Below, piece after piece: positions 26,549 to 31,061 of a stretch of DNA of 40,321 nt (the stretch's first letter is position 1; each line of letters begins with the position of its first letter). Source of the stretch: Candidatus Igneacidithiobacillus taupoensis (lineage in GTDB: Bacteria; Pseudomonadota; Gammaproteobacteria; Acidithiobacillales; Acidithiobacillaceae); contig JAEPKX010000013.1 in the NCBI GenBank assembly GCA_021375695.1, forward strand, positions 1 through 40,321, read 5' to 3'. Under the pieces are notes generated by a model. That model was not told where the DNA came from, ran no database searches, and worked only from the letters and a program-made list of their open reading frames with translations. Both the position numbers and the translations under genes were made by a program.

Positions 26549-26580
26549 CAAAAAAATCGGCTTCCCGAAGGAAGCCGATT
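26549..26580 (-). terminator. Rho-independent terminator of the TonB receptor gene
   Basis: On minus, the stem AATCGGCTTCC/GGAAGCCGATT (11 perfect pairs, stable TTCG loop) is followed by six T's. It begins 19 bases after the receptor stop codon. Confidence 0.95.
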
Positions 26581-26598: not shown

Positions 26599-28983
26599 TT
26601 AAAAATGAGCGGAAATGCTCCCGTAGACGGTGAAAGGAGCACCAGGCAAAGCCAGGACCTGACCTTGGGAGTTACCACCCAATAGACCACCGCTACTGAT
26701 ATATTCGAACTCATTGTAATGATTGTTGGTGATATTGAGGAAAGTCAGGCTTGCGTCCACATGTTTGAGCATGGGCAGCGTCCCTTGGGTAGGCACTTTG
26801 AGGTCAAGTCCCAAATTGAGTGTACCGTAACTTGGCATTTTTTGACTGCTGGGTGCCCCGGTGTTGTTATTGAAGAGGGCTTGAGCTCCTACATATTGAT
26901 ACCAGATGCGTGGTTCGAGCACGGTGCCTGCCACGGGTACTCGGTAATTAAGTCCGATATTGAAGGTCTTGTTCGGGACATTGGAAACCGGTAAACCATC
27001 ATAACTCACACCGCCGGTTACATAGTGGTCAAATACGGCCTTTTCGAAATTGGCATTCAAAAACGCACTGAGGTTATAGAGTATGTTATCCTCCAAAGCC
27101 AGATTTACGCCCTGGTATATGGAGTCGCCGTTGGCATCACCAATATAATTTCCATTGGAATCATAGAGAGGAATATATTGGTTCGAGTAATGGAGATGGT
27201 AGAAACTGGCCGTGAACAGAAAATGGTGCAGGAAAGCAGCGTTGTCAAAATGAATCTTGATCCCGGCATTGTAATCTGCGCCCTTTTCCAGCTTATAGAT
27301 GGGCGATATCTTTTGATACAGGCCGCCTCCACCACCTACGGTTGGTTCCTTGAAGGCTTGCGCATAGCTGGCAAAGACCGCCAGCCATGGGATCGGTCGC
27401 CAGTTGAAATCCACCGATGGTTCTACTTGCGTAAAGCTGGTATTGGCGGCTGGCAGTTTCCCCTGATCATTTTGGGGATAGAGGGCGTAGGCTTGGGCAA
27501 AATCCGATTGTCCGGCCGGCGTATAATTGGTTTGGAAGTTGACCACACGAACGCCGGGGGTAATGTGAAGATTACTCATGGGCGTGATCTGATCTTGGAA
27601 AAACGCCGCAAGGTCGGTCTGGTCAAAATAATCGCTGCGATATTTCGCGTTGGGAACAAAGCGAGTTCCGCCATCGGCCGGATTGTAGAAAGCGTTGCGC
27701 GTGTTATAGTGGCTATTGAGGAAATAGCCACCAAAGCTAATGGTATTGAAAGGCAGTTTCGCTGTCAGATAGATCTTGTCACCATAAACAGCGTCGTGGG
27801 GATTGTTGTATTCATACAAATTAGCAGGACTACTCAAACCATAGTTATTATAATGAAAGTGCAGACGATGACCATAACGATACCAGATCAGGTTGTGAAG
27901 CGACCAGCTTTGATCCAGATCCACATTGAGCTTGCTGTAGAGCAACCACGTGCTGTTGCTATCCTGCTTGTACCAGACATTGTATGGTAGTGAAGAATAA
28001 AAACCGCTGGTGCTTTGACTATAGTTGGCGGAATTGGGGGTTCCATCGAAGGTTACCCCTTCATTGGTGACGGGAATGGGAACAGGACGATAACCCGCGC
28101 CTTTGGCAAGATACGCTCCAAAAGCAAAGTCACCATTCTGGAAACTTTTTCGGGTCTTGAAAAACCAGGCGTAACTGTAGCTGGGGTTATCAAAACCGTC
28201 GGGGCTAGTTCGGTAGCTGTGGGAGGAGCCTGCACCGCCGGCAATGATGGTCGACCAGCCATCGATGTTGCCAGTGCGAATGTTGAACACAATGTTTTTG
28301 GCATCATAGCTGCCGTAGGTCAGTTTGATGTCTCCACCGGGTTTGGCCGTGGGTTGCAAGGGGACAAAATTGATCTGCCCACCGATGTTGTTATACCAGC
28401 GGTCCTCTGGATTACCGGGTCCATAGGTGATGCCAATGCCTTGCAGGATTCCCGTTTGGGGGACTTGTGGCGATTGCCAAAGGCCCGTGGAAGGGTCCAC
28501 CATGGGAACGCCATCAAAGGTAACCGACAGGCTGCCATCGTCAATCTGGCCACCCGAGAAGCCCCCCCATCCCTGCTTGATTCCATTGATGCTAATGGAG
28601 TTTTTGGTAGCTCCCGTGTTCCCGTAGCTGGAAACCCCAACGCCTGGGGCATAAGAAAGGGCTTGGGCACTCCCTCCAAGAGGTCCAGCAGCGGCAATCT
28701 GCTCCTTGTTGAGAATCTTGATGGACTGGCCGGATTGGAAGTTGTTACTTTGGGTCAACGATTGTGCCTCCTGGCTGCCCAGGTAGGAGTCCGCAGTGCT
28801 AGTAGCACTCACTTCGCCGATGGAAATTGGGGAGGAGTTTGTTGCTGCAGTTACATTGTCTGCAGCCAGAAGAGCACCGCTATGGAAAAGGCCCGTGGCG
28901 AGCAGGGCGATGGTCAGCGTTCGCAAGGACAGTGGCTTTTGCTTCGCATAATGGTAAGCCTTTTGATCTAATGATGCTTTCAT
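26599..28983 (-). CDS. TonB-dependent outer-membrane receptor
   Basis: A 794-aa beta-barrel receptor that imports a scarce ligand using TonB-ExbB-ExbD energy. It has a long signal peptide (charged N-terminus, core LTIALLATGLFHSGALLAA) and a TonB-box-like ISIGEVSATS. A plug domain follows (IKILNKEQIAAAG, ALSYAPGVGVSSYG, ISINGIKQGWGG, DGVPMVDPSTG). The barrel ends in terminal phenylalanine (SISAHF). ATG 28983 is chosen because GAGGGA lies five bases upstream; ATG 28995 would add four residues. A hairpin (29011-29017 with 29043-29049, plus an inner GTGGT-AAT-ACCAC) lies in its 5' leader. The promoter carries a Pho box, so the ligand may relate to phosphate supply (inference). A strong terminator follows. 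Confidence 0.93.
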   Translation of the reverse strand: MKASLDQKAYHYAKQKPLSLRTLTIALLATGLFHSGALLAADNVTAATNSSPISIGEVSATSTADSYLGSQEAQSLTQSNNFQSGQSIKILNKEQIAAAGPLGGSAQALSYAPGVGVSSYGNTGATKNSISINGIKQGWGGFSGGQIDDGSLSVTFDGVPMVDPSTGLWQSPQVPQTGILQGIGITYGPGNPEDRWYNNIGGQINFVPLQPTAKPGGDIKLTYGSYDAKNIVFNIRTGNIDGWSTIIAGGAGSSHSYRTSPDGFDNPSYSYAWFFKTRKSFQNGDFAFGAYLAKGAGYRPVPIPVTNEGVTFDGTPNSANYSQSTSGFYSSLPYNVWYKQDSNSTWLLYSKLNVDLDQSWSLHNLIWYRYGHRLHFHYNNYGLSSPANLYEYNNPHDAVYGDKIYLTAKLPFNTISFGGYFLNSHYNTRNAFYNPADGGTRFVPNAKYRSDYFDQTDLAAFFQDQITPMSNLHITPGVRVVNFQTNYTPAGQSDFAQAYALYPQNDQGKLPAANTSFTQVEPSVDFNWRPIPWLAVFASYAQAFKEPTVGGGGGLYQKISPIYKLEKGADYNAGIKIHFDNAAFLHHFLFTASFYHLHYSNQYIPLYDSNGNYIGDANGDSIYQGVNLALEDNILYNLSAFLNANFEKAVFDHYVTGGVSYDGLPVSNVPNKTFNIGLNYRVPVAGTVLEPRIWYQYVGAQALFNNNTGAPSSQKMPSYGTLNLGLDLKVPTQGTLPMLKHVDASLTFLNITNNHYNEFEYISSGGLLGGNSQGQVLALPGAPFTVYGSISAHF

Positions 28984-29075
28984 GAAATCCCTCATATTGG
29001 TAGCAATTGGTGGTGTTCACTGTGTTGGTGGTAATACCACTTAACACCAAGGCATCTTAGCAAAGGAATGTTACA

Positions 29076-29109
29076 ATATTATGAACATTTCATGACAAAA
29101 CCATGACAA
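29076..29109 (-). promoter_or_regulatory. Pho-box promoter of the TonB receptor gene
   Basis: On minus the sequence runs TTGTCAT-GGTT-TTGTCAT (29109-29092), then GAAA and a weaker third repeat TGTTCAT (29087-29081). The 7-base units repeat every 11 bases, as in the PhoB site CTGTCAT-A/T-rich 4-CTGTCA. Ten bases after the second unit comes -10 TAATAT (29081-29076), the same spacing as in E. coli phoA. No good -35 hexamer is present, as expected for a promoter activated by PhoB. Transcription should start near 29069. Confidence 0.75.
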
Positions 29110-29134
29110 AATCATTTTTCTATTGCCGACCATG

Positions 29135-29163
29135 ACAGCAGGAAAGGTATTTTTCCTTGCTGT
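29135..29163. repeat. Imperfect inverted repeat between divergent genes
   Basis: ACAGCAGGAAA (29135-29145) pairs with TTTCCTTGCTGT (29152-29163): 11 pairs with one bulged T and a 6-base loop. No T-run follows on either strand, so it is more likely a protein-binding dyad than a terminator. It lies just upstream of the Pho box. Confidence 0.6.
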
Positions 29164-29223
29164 GAAACTCATCAACTCCACCGGCATGGGAATTTCTTGA
29201 TGAATTGCCTAGGTCTTGGAAGG

Positions 29224-29229
29224 TATAAT
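29224..29229 (+). promoter_or_regulatory. -10 box ahead of the DoxX-like gene
   Basis: A perfect TATAAT lies 40 bases upstream of ATG 29270. No matching -35 hexamer stands at 16-18 bases; TTGATG is at 21 bases and TTGCCT at 13. The promoter may need an activator. Confidence 0.5.
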
Positions 29230-29269
29230 CTTCGCGAACGAAAGCAACGAGAGAGGGGATACACCGCAG

Positions 29270-30238
29270 ATGACCACAAATTCTACCCAAGGACTGTATC
29301 GCTCTTTTGCGGCCATCCGGATACTCTTTGGCCTGGTTTGGCTCATCAATACCTATCTGCAGCTTAATCCAGCCTATATCCATCTCTTTGCCCATAGCCT
29401 GCAAGCCGATCTGGTGGCGGGCCAACCGGCCTGGTTGCAGGCCTATGGGGCTTGGACGCTGCACTGGGTTACGATCGTGGGGCCGGCACTGGTGGCAAAG
29501 GTCACCATTGTTCTCGATGCGCTTCTCGCAGTGTCTTTGATTACGGGCCTGGGTCTTCCTTTTCTTGCCTGGCTTGGCTTTTTTTACAATCTCTGGCTCT
29601 GGTCCACGGTGGGCGGATTGGGTGGTCCTTACACTACGGGGGCCACGGACCCTGGGACTGCCATCATTTATGCCCTGTGTTTCTTGCTGGTGATCTGGAG
29701 CCGCAGCTGGCAGGTCTGGAGCTTGCAGCCAAGCCCAGTGCGCTTGCCGCAGGCGGCGGGCATGGAAACGGGCCGTATTGTCTTTGGGCTGTTGTGGGCC
29801 TTTGATGCCTTTTGGAAATGGCAACCCTATTTTCTGACCCATGCCGTGACCTACCTGCAACAAGCCCTGCCTGGGGAGCCTGCCTGGATCGTCGCGTATA
29901 TTTCGTTCTTCATCCATGTCATCAACCTCTTGGGCCCCGTGACTTTTGGGATCGTTGCCGCCCTGATGGAAAGTATCATCGCTTTTTCCCTGCTCACTGG
30001 CGTTGCCCTGCGTTGGCTGGTTCCCGTAGGGATTTTCTACAGCCTCGGGGTGTGGACCACCGCTGAAGGTTGGGGTGCGCCCTACCTGCCGGGTATGACC
30101 GCCAACAAGGGCGACGTATTGGGCACTACCAATATCTATGTCATTGCCTTCCTTTTCGTTGGCGTATGGGTCTATTTGCGGCCCAGGGTCCAGGAACGTT
30201 CCGCCACGAAAACCGCCGTCAGCGCCCCGGCACCGTGA
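29270..30238 (+). CDS. Tandemly duplicated DoxX/DoxD-like membrane protein
   Basis: A 322-aa integral membrane protein built from two similar halves (about residues 15-143 and 167-300), each with about four membrane segments. Matching pairs: RILFGLVWLINTY with RIVFGLLWAFDAF; SLITGLGLPFLAWLGFFYNLWLWST with SLLTGVALRWLVPVGIFYSLGVWTT; GGPYTTGATDPGT with GAPYLPGMTANKGD. The fold resembles DoxX/DoxD, the family of the membrane subunit of thiosulfate:quinone oxidoreductase in sulfur oxidisers, but function here is unproven. ATG 29270 is preferred over an upstream ATG at 29216, which lies before the -10 box; GAGAGGGG is 11 bases upstream. Confidence 0.75.
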   Translation: MTTNSTQGLYRSFAAIRILFGLVWLINTYLQLNPAYIHLFAHSLQADLVAGQPAWLQAYGAWTLHWVTIVGPALVAKVTIVLDALLAVSLITGLGLPFLAWLGFFYNLWLWSTVGGLGGPYTTGATDPGTAIIYALCFLLVIWSRSWQVWSLQPSPVRLPQAAGMETGRIVFGLLWAFDAFWKWQPYFLTHAVTYLQQALPGEPAWIVAYISFFIHVINLLGPVTFGIVAALMESIIAFSLLTGVALRWLVPVGIFYSLGVWTTAEGWGAPYLPGMTANKGDVLGTTNIYVIAFLFVGVWVYLRPRVQERSATKTAVSAPAP

Positions 30239-30266
30239 AGTATTCCCGTTGATTCTGGCTGACTTT

Positions 30267-30295
30267 TTGCCCCGGAAGCGGGATTTTGCTAGGGT
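30267..30295 (+). promoter_or_regulatory. Candidate promoter before the DUF481-like gene
   Basis: TTGCCC (30267-30272) and TAGGGT (30290-30295) are 17 bases apart, with a TGC extended -10 directly before the second box. It would give the outer-membrane protein, rph and rdgB their own start within the 88-base gap. Confidence 0.35.
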
Positions 30296-30326
30296 AGGCG
30301 TCCTTTTGTTGCAAAAAGAGGGGGTC

Positions 30327-31061
30327 ATGGGCAAACACTTTTGGCTAAGTGGTTTTTTGCTTGCGCTACCCATACAGGCCGTTGCTGCTCCGCCACAGGG
30401 TTTCAGCGGCGATGTGGGCCTGGGGGCCAGTAGCAGCACCGGGACCAGCCAAGCTTTGAGTCTTAACACCGAAGATGCGTTGTATTGGGTCGGTGGGCCG
30501 TGGTCCAACCAAACGCATCTATCTTACAACTACGCACGAAGTGATAGCGAAGTTTCCGCCGATCGCCTGGCGCTTCGCAATGACACCCACTATCTTTTTG
30601 ATCGCAATACCTATGCCTTGGGCGATGTGGATTACATTCGCAACCACTTTGATGGGTATTACTATCGTGTCAATTTGCTGGCAGGTCTCGGTCATTATTT
30701 TTATCCCCGCAAAGACATGCGTCTTAGTGTAGAAGCAGCCGTAGGTGGGCGGCAGGCCCATCTCATTGGGGAAACACCAAGGTTCCTGCCCGTGGTCAGA
30801 GTGGGTGCCAAGTATCGCTGGCAGATCAGTAAGGAGGCGCGTTTGCGCGAAGAGGTGCAGGCAATCCTGGTGGATGATGGAGCCAACACCTATCAATCTC
30901 GCCTCGCGGTGGATACCCCACTGGTGGGGTCCTTGGGGATGCGGTTTTCCTTTTTGGCCAGTTACAATGCCCAGGTCAGGCCAGGGTTCAAGCCCTTCAA
31001 TACCCTCACGGCTGTCAATCTCGTTTATCATTTTGGCGATACCCAAAGTAAGGAGACCTAA
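30327..31061 (+). CDS. DUF481-like outer-membrane beta-barrel protein
   Basis: A 244-aa exported protein with a signal peptide (FWLSGFLLALPIQAVAA, then PPQ). The barrel-like body shows GFSGDVGLGASSSTGTSQALSL, THYLFDRNTYALGDVDYIRN, YRVNLLAGLGHYFYP and a final strand AVNLVYHFG. These match the DUF481/YdiY family, called salt-induced outer-membrane proteins in some genomes; the true role is unknown. AGAGGGGG lies before ATG 30327, which places the signal peptide correctly; longer starts would overlap the previous gene. The stop abuts rph. Confidence 0.8.
   Translation: MGKHFWLSGFLLALPIQAVAAPPQGFSGDVGLGASSSTGTSQALSLNTEDALYWVGGPWSNQTHLSYNYARSDSEVSADRLALRNDTHYLFDRNTYALGDVDYIRNHFDGYYYRVNLLAGLGHYFYPRKDMRLSVEAAVGGRQAHLIGETPRFLPVVRVGAKYRWQISKEARLREEVQAILVDDGANTYQSRLAVDTPLVGSLGMRFSFLASYNAQVRPGFKPFNTLTAVNLVYHFGDTQSKET

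Follow-up and report, generated by a model that had tools for sequence, protein, structure and literature searches.

Within the Pho regulon, the E. coli genes pstS and phoA are transcribed from promoters activated by PhoB. The Pho box has been defined previously (PMC4415409). In Flavobacterium, TonB-dependent and SusCD-like (Pus) transporters encoded near phosphatases are induced at low phosphate (PMC8115612); the Caulobacter receptor gene cc0171, located beside type II secretion genes, was reported to be constitutive (PMC2996285). For Acidithiobacillus, two papers from 2008 described surprisingly many TonB-dependent receptors annotated for siderophores although iron is plentiful in the habitat (PMC2621215, PMC2631029), and the number of iron systems was called surprising (PMC2621215). 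One of these studies found four receptors clustered with phosphatases and PhoB-like regulators, proposed uptake of phosphate-chelated iron under a joint Fur and PhoB circuit and searched for Fur boxes, its available text reporting no Pho boxes (PMC2631029). A. ferrooxidans responds to phosphate limitation by inducing both of its pst operons, according to a personal communication cited in PMC10322971. The literature searched, which comprised few subscription papers, yielded no report of a Pho box in Acidithiobacillus and none linking PhoB, TonB-dependent receptors, phosphate limitation and ExbB.

In this study, we analysed a stretch of 40,321 nt from Candidatus Igneacidithiobacillus taupoensis (hereafter the window), in which a gene for a TonB-dependent receptor (TBDR) is preceded by four 11-bp Pho units (29070-29108; cores TGTCAT, TGTCAT, GTTCAT, and TGTAAC). 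Judged from sequence, we give a probability of roughly 0.7 to the reading that this is a PhoB-activated promoter driving the TonB-powered uptake of a phosphorus compound.

The receptor gene and its promoter

The features of the locus are as follows (window positions, all on the minus strand):
26555..26580, minus: terminator-like stem-loop with T run, just past the receptor gene
26599..28995, minus: TBDR, 798 aa (PF00593 122.2 bits, cut-off 27; PF07715 24.4 bits, cut-off 23.9)
29054..29059, minus: likely -10, TAAGAT, 10 nt past unit 4 (spacing in aligned promoters and orthologues)
29070..29076, minus: Pho unit 4, TTGTAAC, missed by the initial annotation (genome pattern and promoter alignment)
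29076..29081, minus: TAATAT, less likely -10, 10 nt past unit 2, overlapping unit 4
29081..29087, minus: Pho unit 3, TGTTCAT, weaker (sequence, genome pattern, and promoter alignment)
29092..29098, minus: Pho unit 2, TTGTCAT, perfect (sequence and four-unit genome pattern)
29103..29109, minus: Pho unit 1, TTGTCAT, perfect (sequence and four-unit genome pattern)

The protein was assigned to the TonB-dependent receptors by plug and barrel domains above the Pfam cut-offs, and its translation may start at the second ATG (28983), which is preceded by GAGGG. The predicted fold matched FhuA, PqqU, and others, with FhuA as the nearest solved structure, a generic resemblance obtained from a model of middling confidence (pLDDT 65.8, pTM 0.72); the fold search pointed to no ligand, and the sequence found nothing in the PDB at E<=0.1. 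Among named records, the most similar receptors (77 and 80% identity) are encoded in metagenome-assembled genomes (MAGs) of Acidithiobacillus and Candidatus Igneacidithiobacillus. Because the terminator-like stem-loop directly follows the gene, the receptor is probably transcribed alone in this genome. Divergently to it, positions 29270-31061 (plus strand) hold an ORF without Pfam or NCBIfam match followed by a gene for a DUF481 protein. An Rfam search of 28600-29600 gave nothing at E<=0.1, leaving a B12 riboswitch unsupported.

Read on the minus strand from 29109 to 29054, the promoter consists of TTGTCAT GGTT TTGTCAT GAAA TGTTCAT AATA TTGTAAC ATTCCTTTGC TAAGAT. The initial annotation had described two TTGTCAT units 11 bases apart and a third, weaker unit in register, all of which are present as described (29103-29109, 29092-29098, and 29081-29087); its count of three was one short, as a fourth unit occupies 29070-29076, a position that reads TGTAAC in the promoter of the receptor on contig C10 and GGTAAC in that of the receptor on C25. 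It had further taken TAATAT as the -10. This hexamer does sit 10 nt after unit 2, but TAAGAT lies equally 10 nt after unit 4; since both fit the 10-nt spacing and some promoters of the genome have two clear units (e.g., that of the ABC ATPase gene next to phoR, which is probably pstB), the choice was left to conservation. The aligned other promoters of the genome share the plan of last unit, 10 nt, and -10, with the hexamers TATGAT (pstS), TACATT (exbB), TATAGT (regulator gene beside exbB), TAAAAT (C5 symporter), TATGGT (C40 ABC operon), TAAGCT (C52 porin), TATAGT (C10 receptor), and TAGTAT (C25 receptor); the C26 site fits it more poorly (CATACT). Among orthologous arrays, TAnnnT was found 10 nt after unit 4 in 22 of 23 as printed (21 of 22 plus that of locus L101), the odd one (L090) having it in an alternative register of equal score, compared with 3 of 22 arrays, the window among them, 10 nt after unit 2. 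Thus, following the plan of the other promoters, the -10 of the window is likely TAAGAT, TAATAT being not conserved. The claimed lack of a -35 box agrees with the finding of no sigma-70 hexamer pair in 28960-29300, weak evidence by itself since shuffles average just 1.0.

The loose two-unit pattern (<=3 mismatches) occurred three times in the window against 2.62 expected, exactly only at the receptor site, and is no evidence by itself; with <=2 mismatches, it was found 42 times in the whole genome and 14 times in the reversed control. The four-unit pattern TCATN7TCATN7TCATN7TNAT (<=1 mismatch) gave six matches at four loci of the 1.73 Mb genome, including the window receptor site and pstS, and none in the reversed control. 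In addition, we built a sequence-only profile (R1) from six of the genome's four-unit promoters, all located before genes other than receptors, leaving out the two-unit promoters of pstB and of the MFS gene on C39. In the window, the receptor site was its sole match at E<=1 (25.4 bits, E 4.6e-7; genome-wide E 2.0e-5, all E-values of the profile search being rough). Over the whole genome, 15 matches were obtained at E<=0.1, six being the training sites, and the next in rank lay at the C10 receptor, a porin-like gene on C16 (OprD 24.9 bits, cut-off 25), the C25 receptor (twice), the window receptor, C26, and C29. C14:20573 and C25:66611 denote a single site, the ends of these contigs sharing 127 identical bases. 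This overlap covers the receptor promoter, and C14 and C25 probably join there.

Relatives of the receptor were detected in 28 of the 29 genomes of the family, and 27 full-length orthologues (>=68% identity) from 26 genomes, the window's included, were compared. An upstream array beating all 400 shuffles was present in 23 of them; shuffles preserved dinucleotides in the main test (22 arrays), whereas the array of L101 (three mismatches) was matched by 0 of 400 plain shuffles. According to the initial annotation, absence of the repeats from close relatives carrying the gene would speak against PhoB control; with the array retained in 23 of 27 orthologues, this comparison did not refute it. In the other four, no above-chance array was detected directly upstream: judged from the upstream sequence, the receptor lies behind exbD in G018, G019, and G021, with a box 0.4-5 kb upstream, and directly behind another TBDR in G005 (contig C750), so that these appear as operon-like settings. 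The order with exbD before the receptor was also seen in L054, where boxes are followed by exbB-like, exbD-like, receptor, TonB-like, binding protein, ABC permease, and ATPase genes (the permease assigned by Pfam, the binding protein by alignment, the others by resemblance).

Two further explanations can be weighed against these data. Chance resemblance, for which the unremarkable frequency of the loose two-unit pattern might speak, is contradicted by the four-unit pattern (four loci against none in the control), the held-out profile, the conservation in orthologues, and the receptor-class counts given below, and was set aside as extremely improbable. The box could also drive the divergent gene (29270-30238, plus strand) and not the receptor, since it sits in the intergenic stretch common to both, but the units and the -10 are oriented towards the receptor, which the array precedes in 23 of 27 orthologues; this, too, was set aside as very improbable.

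Receptors and other genes behind the same promoter

Among the best 150 of 385 R1 matches (six training sites) in the 29 genomes, set against the best 150 of 175 plug matches, 28 immediately preceded a receptor, and none did so in the same list with the box orientation flipped. For seven genomes, complete lists were used and an R1 match was counted if located on the same strand and <=1500 nt upstream of the barrel start. Such promoters were present at 20 of 51 TBDR barrels (opposite strand 0, equal downstream stretch 2) and thus missing within this distance at the remaining 31; a limit of 2500 nt raised the number to 25 of 51 (opposite strand 1, downstream 2). In the window's genome, three of four receptors carry a Pho-type promoter, and that of the fourth (C62) may be cut off, as the gene starts 146 nt from the contig end.

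Beyond the family, only few relatives show the promoter clearly. Over 13 loci, R1 matched only in L055, L054 (four), and at a weak non-receptor site in L044. Ten loci from beyond the family were scanned for two units plus -10 and judged against 500 shuffles without dinucleotide preservation. Sites better than the shuffles included a -10 in L046 (0/500) and L048 (1/500) and consisted of two units without a -10 in L051 (5/500), L052 (1/500), and L053 (0/500), while L045, L047, L049, L050, and L056 gave nothing. The three loci L051:537, L052:2212, and L053:5747, all from MAGs, show the identical two-unit box ATGTCATATGCAAGTCAT before a receptor and lack a -10 where it would be expected.

Both PhoB (309.6 bits, cut-off 296.2) and PhoR (365.5 bits, cut-off 334.2) are encoded in the genome, and the DNA-binding domain of PhoB is closest to that of E. 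coli PhoB among solved structures, with RTVDVHIRRLR common to both. The box upstream of pstS, for which the initial annotation had suggested a check, is present. Further genes with the same promoter type are the exbB operon (ExbB-ExbD-TonB-RNase T2, with a PF04185 phosphoesterase next in line), two other receptors, of which that on C25 has a 971-aa phosphoesterase-domain protein encoded behind it, and an FbpA/PhnS2-like ABC importer; boxes also precede the ABC ATPase gene beside phoR and a symporter gene that comes nearest, with a score under the cut-off, to phosphate:H+ symporters. A second ExbD-TonB pair, followed by a PhoD-like phosphatase, is located on C44 without a four-unit array in the surrounding 3.2 kb. 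Four TonB_C matches were found in the genome, so that the receptor has candidate partners besides the Pho-controlled TonB. Taken together, the pstS box, the arrays of 23 orthologues, and the PhoB and PhoR genes support PhoB control of the receptor at the sequence level.

Several other genes were noted in this context. A 271-aa PhoB-like regulator with a winged-helix domain and without a Pfam receiver domain (G000:C39:40392-41207; L061:8393-9208) is preceded by a four-unit box of its own and followed directly by the exbB box, and a protein sized and placed like it is encoded at L054:3949-4761. Adjoining genes for a glycosyltransferase and a calcineurin-like phosphoesterase lie in the same Pho cluster (G000:C39:38348-40200; L061:6349-8201), a pair that presumably resembles Agt and PlcP of lipid renovation. 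A Pho-type box was also detected before OlsB-like and OlsA-like genes (G000:C26:41171-41210, L063:4427-6141), both below the NCBIfam cut-offs. OlsB and OlsA serve in ornithine-lipid synthesis, and this box suggests that cells starved of phosphate may produce membrane lipids without phosphorus. Boxes were further located before an OprD-family porin gene (G000:C52:324-1704) and a second porin-like gene (G000:C16:9890 onwards).

The linked importer and the ligand

On C40, a four-unit box precedes an operon whose products are a binding protein, a permease, an ATPase, and a membrane protein resembling OFeT_1. This importer and the receptor are located on separate contigs of the window's genome (C40 and C47). 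Behind the receptor, L046 has genes for TonB, the binding protein, the permease, and the ATPase, and L048 has genes for TonB, the binding protein, and later an OFeT_1-like protein, with permease- and ATPase-sized genes between. The OFeT_1 family is named for iron; the genome's own copy stays below the cut-off (25.3 bits, cut-off 26.9) and that of L048 exceeds it (29.8). A PDB sequence search with the binding protein returned P5PA, a pyridoxal-phosphate binder, first, followed by ferric-binding proteins, and the predicted fold of the L054 homologue, a middling model (pLDDT 72.4), matched HitA and FbpA first, then P5PA, and lower down a glucose-6-phosphate binder and AfuA. The tyrosine pair of the NNYY motif of HitA and FbpA holds Fe(III). 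In the alignment, all five binding proteins show an invariant QSSAA at this position, so that the tyrosine pair of FbpABC ferric importers is absent from 5/5. The best NCBIfam families were those of aminoethylphosphonate transporters, PhnS2 for the binding protein (TIGR03261, 57.5 bits, cut-off 392.75) and PhnU2 for the permease (TIGR03262, 73.3 bits, cut-off 593.25), both far from the cut-off.

Regarding iron control, Fur is encoded in the genome, but the best match in the intergenic stretch of the window to the 19-position E. coli consensus, a comparison that a diverged Fur box would escape, had nine mismatches and was matched or beaten by 200 of 200 shuffles. None above chance was found at the C10, C25, and C62 receptors or at exbB, and over 26 orthologue rows, L101 being left out, the lowest shuffle counts (2, 6, 6, 8, 8, and 10 of 100) were about chance for this number of rows; shuffles in this test did not preserve dinucleotides. 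Control by Fur through a standard box was therefore set aside. The best NCBIfam names of the receptor itself are heme receptors, and the heme and siderophore receptor cut-offs were missed by far (TIGR01785 44.3 against 316.85, TIGR01786 34 against 323.75).

Based on these findings, we infer the following course. Under phosphate scarcity, phosphorylated PhoB would bind the four head-to-tail 11-bp units, which replace a -35 element, and recruit RNA polymerase to the -10 located 10 nt past the last unit, switching on the outer-membrane receptor. The receptor would then import a phosphorus compound such as a sugar or nucleotide phosphate, a phosphonate, or the like, powered by TonB, and the compound could be handed to the FbpA/PhnS2-like ABC importer or another inner-membrane importer. 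As the same promoter precedes pstS, the exbB operon, receptors, and importer, TonB-powered phosphorus import is the likely purpose; by usual annotation the receptor would be called an iron importer, yet its Pho switch suggests that it gathers a phosphorus compound and not iron. Weighing against this reading are the 31 of 51 receptors without such a promoter, the ferric-binding fold class of the importer with its OFeT_1-like partner, the heme receptors as best NCBIfam names, the separate contigs of receptor and importer, and the scarcity of clear promoters beyond the family. The organophosphate or phosphate complex proposed initially fits the gene company, the data on the importer together with the phosphoesterases and the RNase favouring a phosphorylated compound.

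Two other explanations deserve closer consideration. A PhoB-controlled receptor might still import iron, secreted phosphatases freeing phosphate and the receptor taking up chelated Fe(III) as a ferric phosphate or similar complex, as was proposed for such clusters (PMC2631029). The main facts on this side are the OFeT_1-like partner and the ferric-binding fold class of the importer, to which the nearness of the receptor fold to FhuA, though generic, may be added; QSSAA in place of NNYY in all five binding proteins, the lack of an above-chance Fur box at the window receptor despite an encoded Fur, and the aminoethylphosphonate transporters as best, if far below cut-off, NCBIfam families of binding protein and permease make an iron ligand unlikely. 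The main reader of the boxes might, on the other hand, be the 271-aa OmpR-type regulator beside exbB, with PhoB above it: it combines a winged-helix domain with a C-terminal part resembling PhoB (76.8 bits, cut-off 296.2), has a four-unit box of its own, and recurs at the same size and place in L054. Against this, the genome encodes a complete PhoB whose recognition segment is like that of E. coli, and pstS carries the same box; we regard this role as quite unlikely. The regulator could form a second tier, PhoB also inducing this receiver-less DNA-binding protein.

Beyond this locus, we tentatively suggest that the TonB system of the Acidithiobacillaceae has been turned from iron to phosphorus, perhaps in two regulatory tiers, based on the 20 of 51 receptors, the Pho-controlled ExbB-ExbD-TonB, and the FbpA-class importer lacking the iron site, which together would make up a PhoB-driven route for phosphorylated compounds. 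If true, this would account for the many supposed siderophore receptors in bacteria of iron-rich acid, for which the phosphate-starvation promoter, conserved on a considerable fraction of them, offers a testable alternative, namely phosphorus import. It would also change annotations in this biomining group and provide a case of TonB-powered phosphorus uptake beyond the Bacteroidetes.

Comparison with known systems

Boxes of this type are canonical, and receptors under phosphate control have been described in other bacteria; measured against the literature searched, the promoter evidence, the family-wide conservation, the share of receptors, and the linked importer appear to be new. As in the E. 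coli pstS and phoA promoters, 11-bp direct repeats with a TGTCA core precede a -10 without a -35, and PhoB and PhoR are encoded, but here usually four units are present and the promoter stands before a TonB-dependent receptor. The linked binding protein shares its fold class with FbpA-class importers of phosphorylated compounds, namely P5PA, AfuA/VcA0625 (glucose-6-phosphate), and PhnS2/PhnU2, although only distantly (identity about 20%, with NCBIfam scores well short of the cut-offs). The Acidithiobacillus clusters of FecA3 and other TBDRs come from the same bacterial group and have ExbBD-TonB, phosphatases, and PhoB-like regulators alongside, but were read as ferric iron uptake with Fur boxes, their gene names being unmatched to the window gene (PMC2631029). 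The Pus transporters of Flavobacterium likewise combine TonB dependence with the company of phosphatases and are induced by phosphate depletion; they belong to Bacteroidetes and have SusD partners, whereas the window presents a sequence-based case from acidophilic Proteobacteria with a promoter mapped by comparison (PMC8115612).
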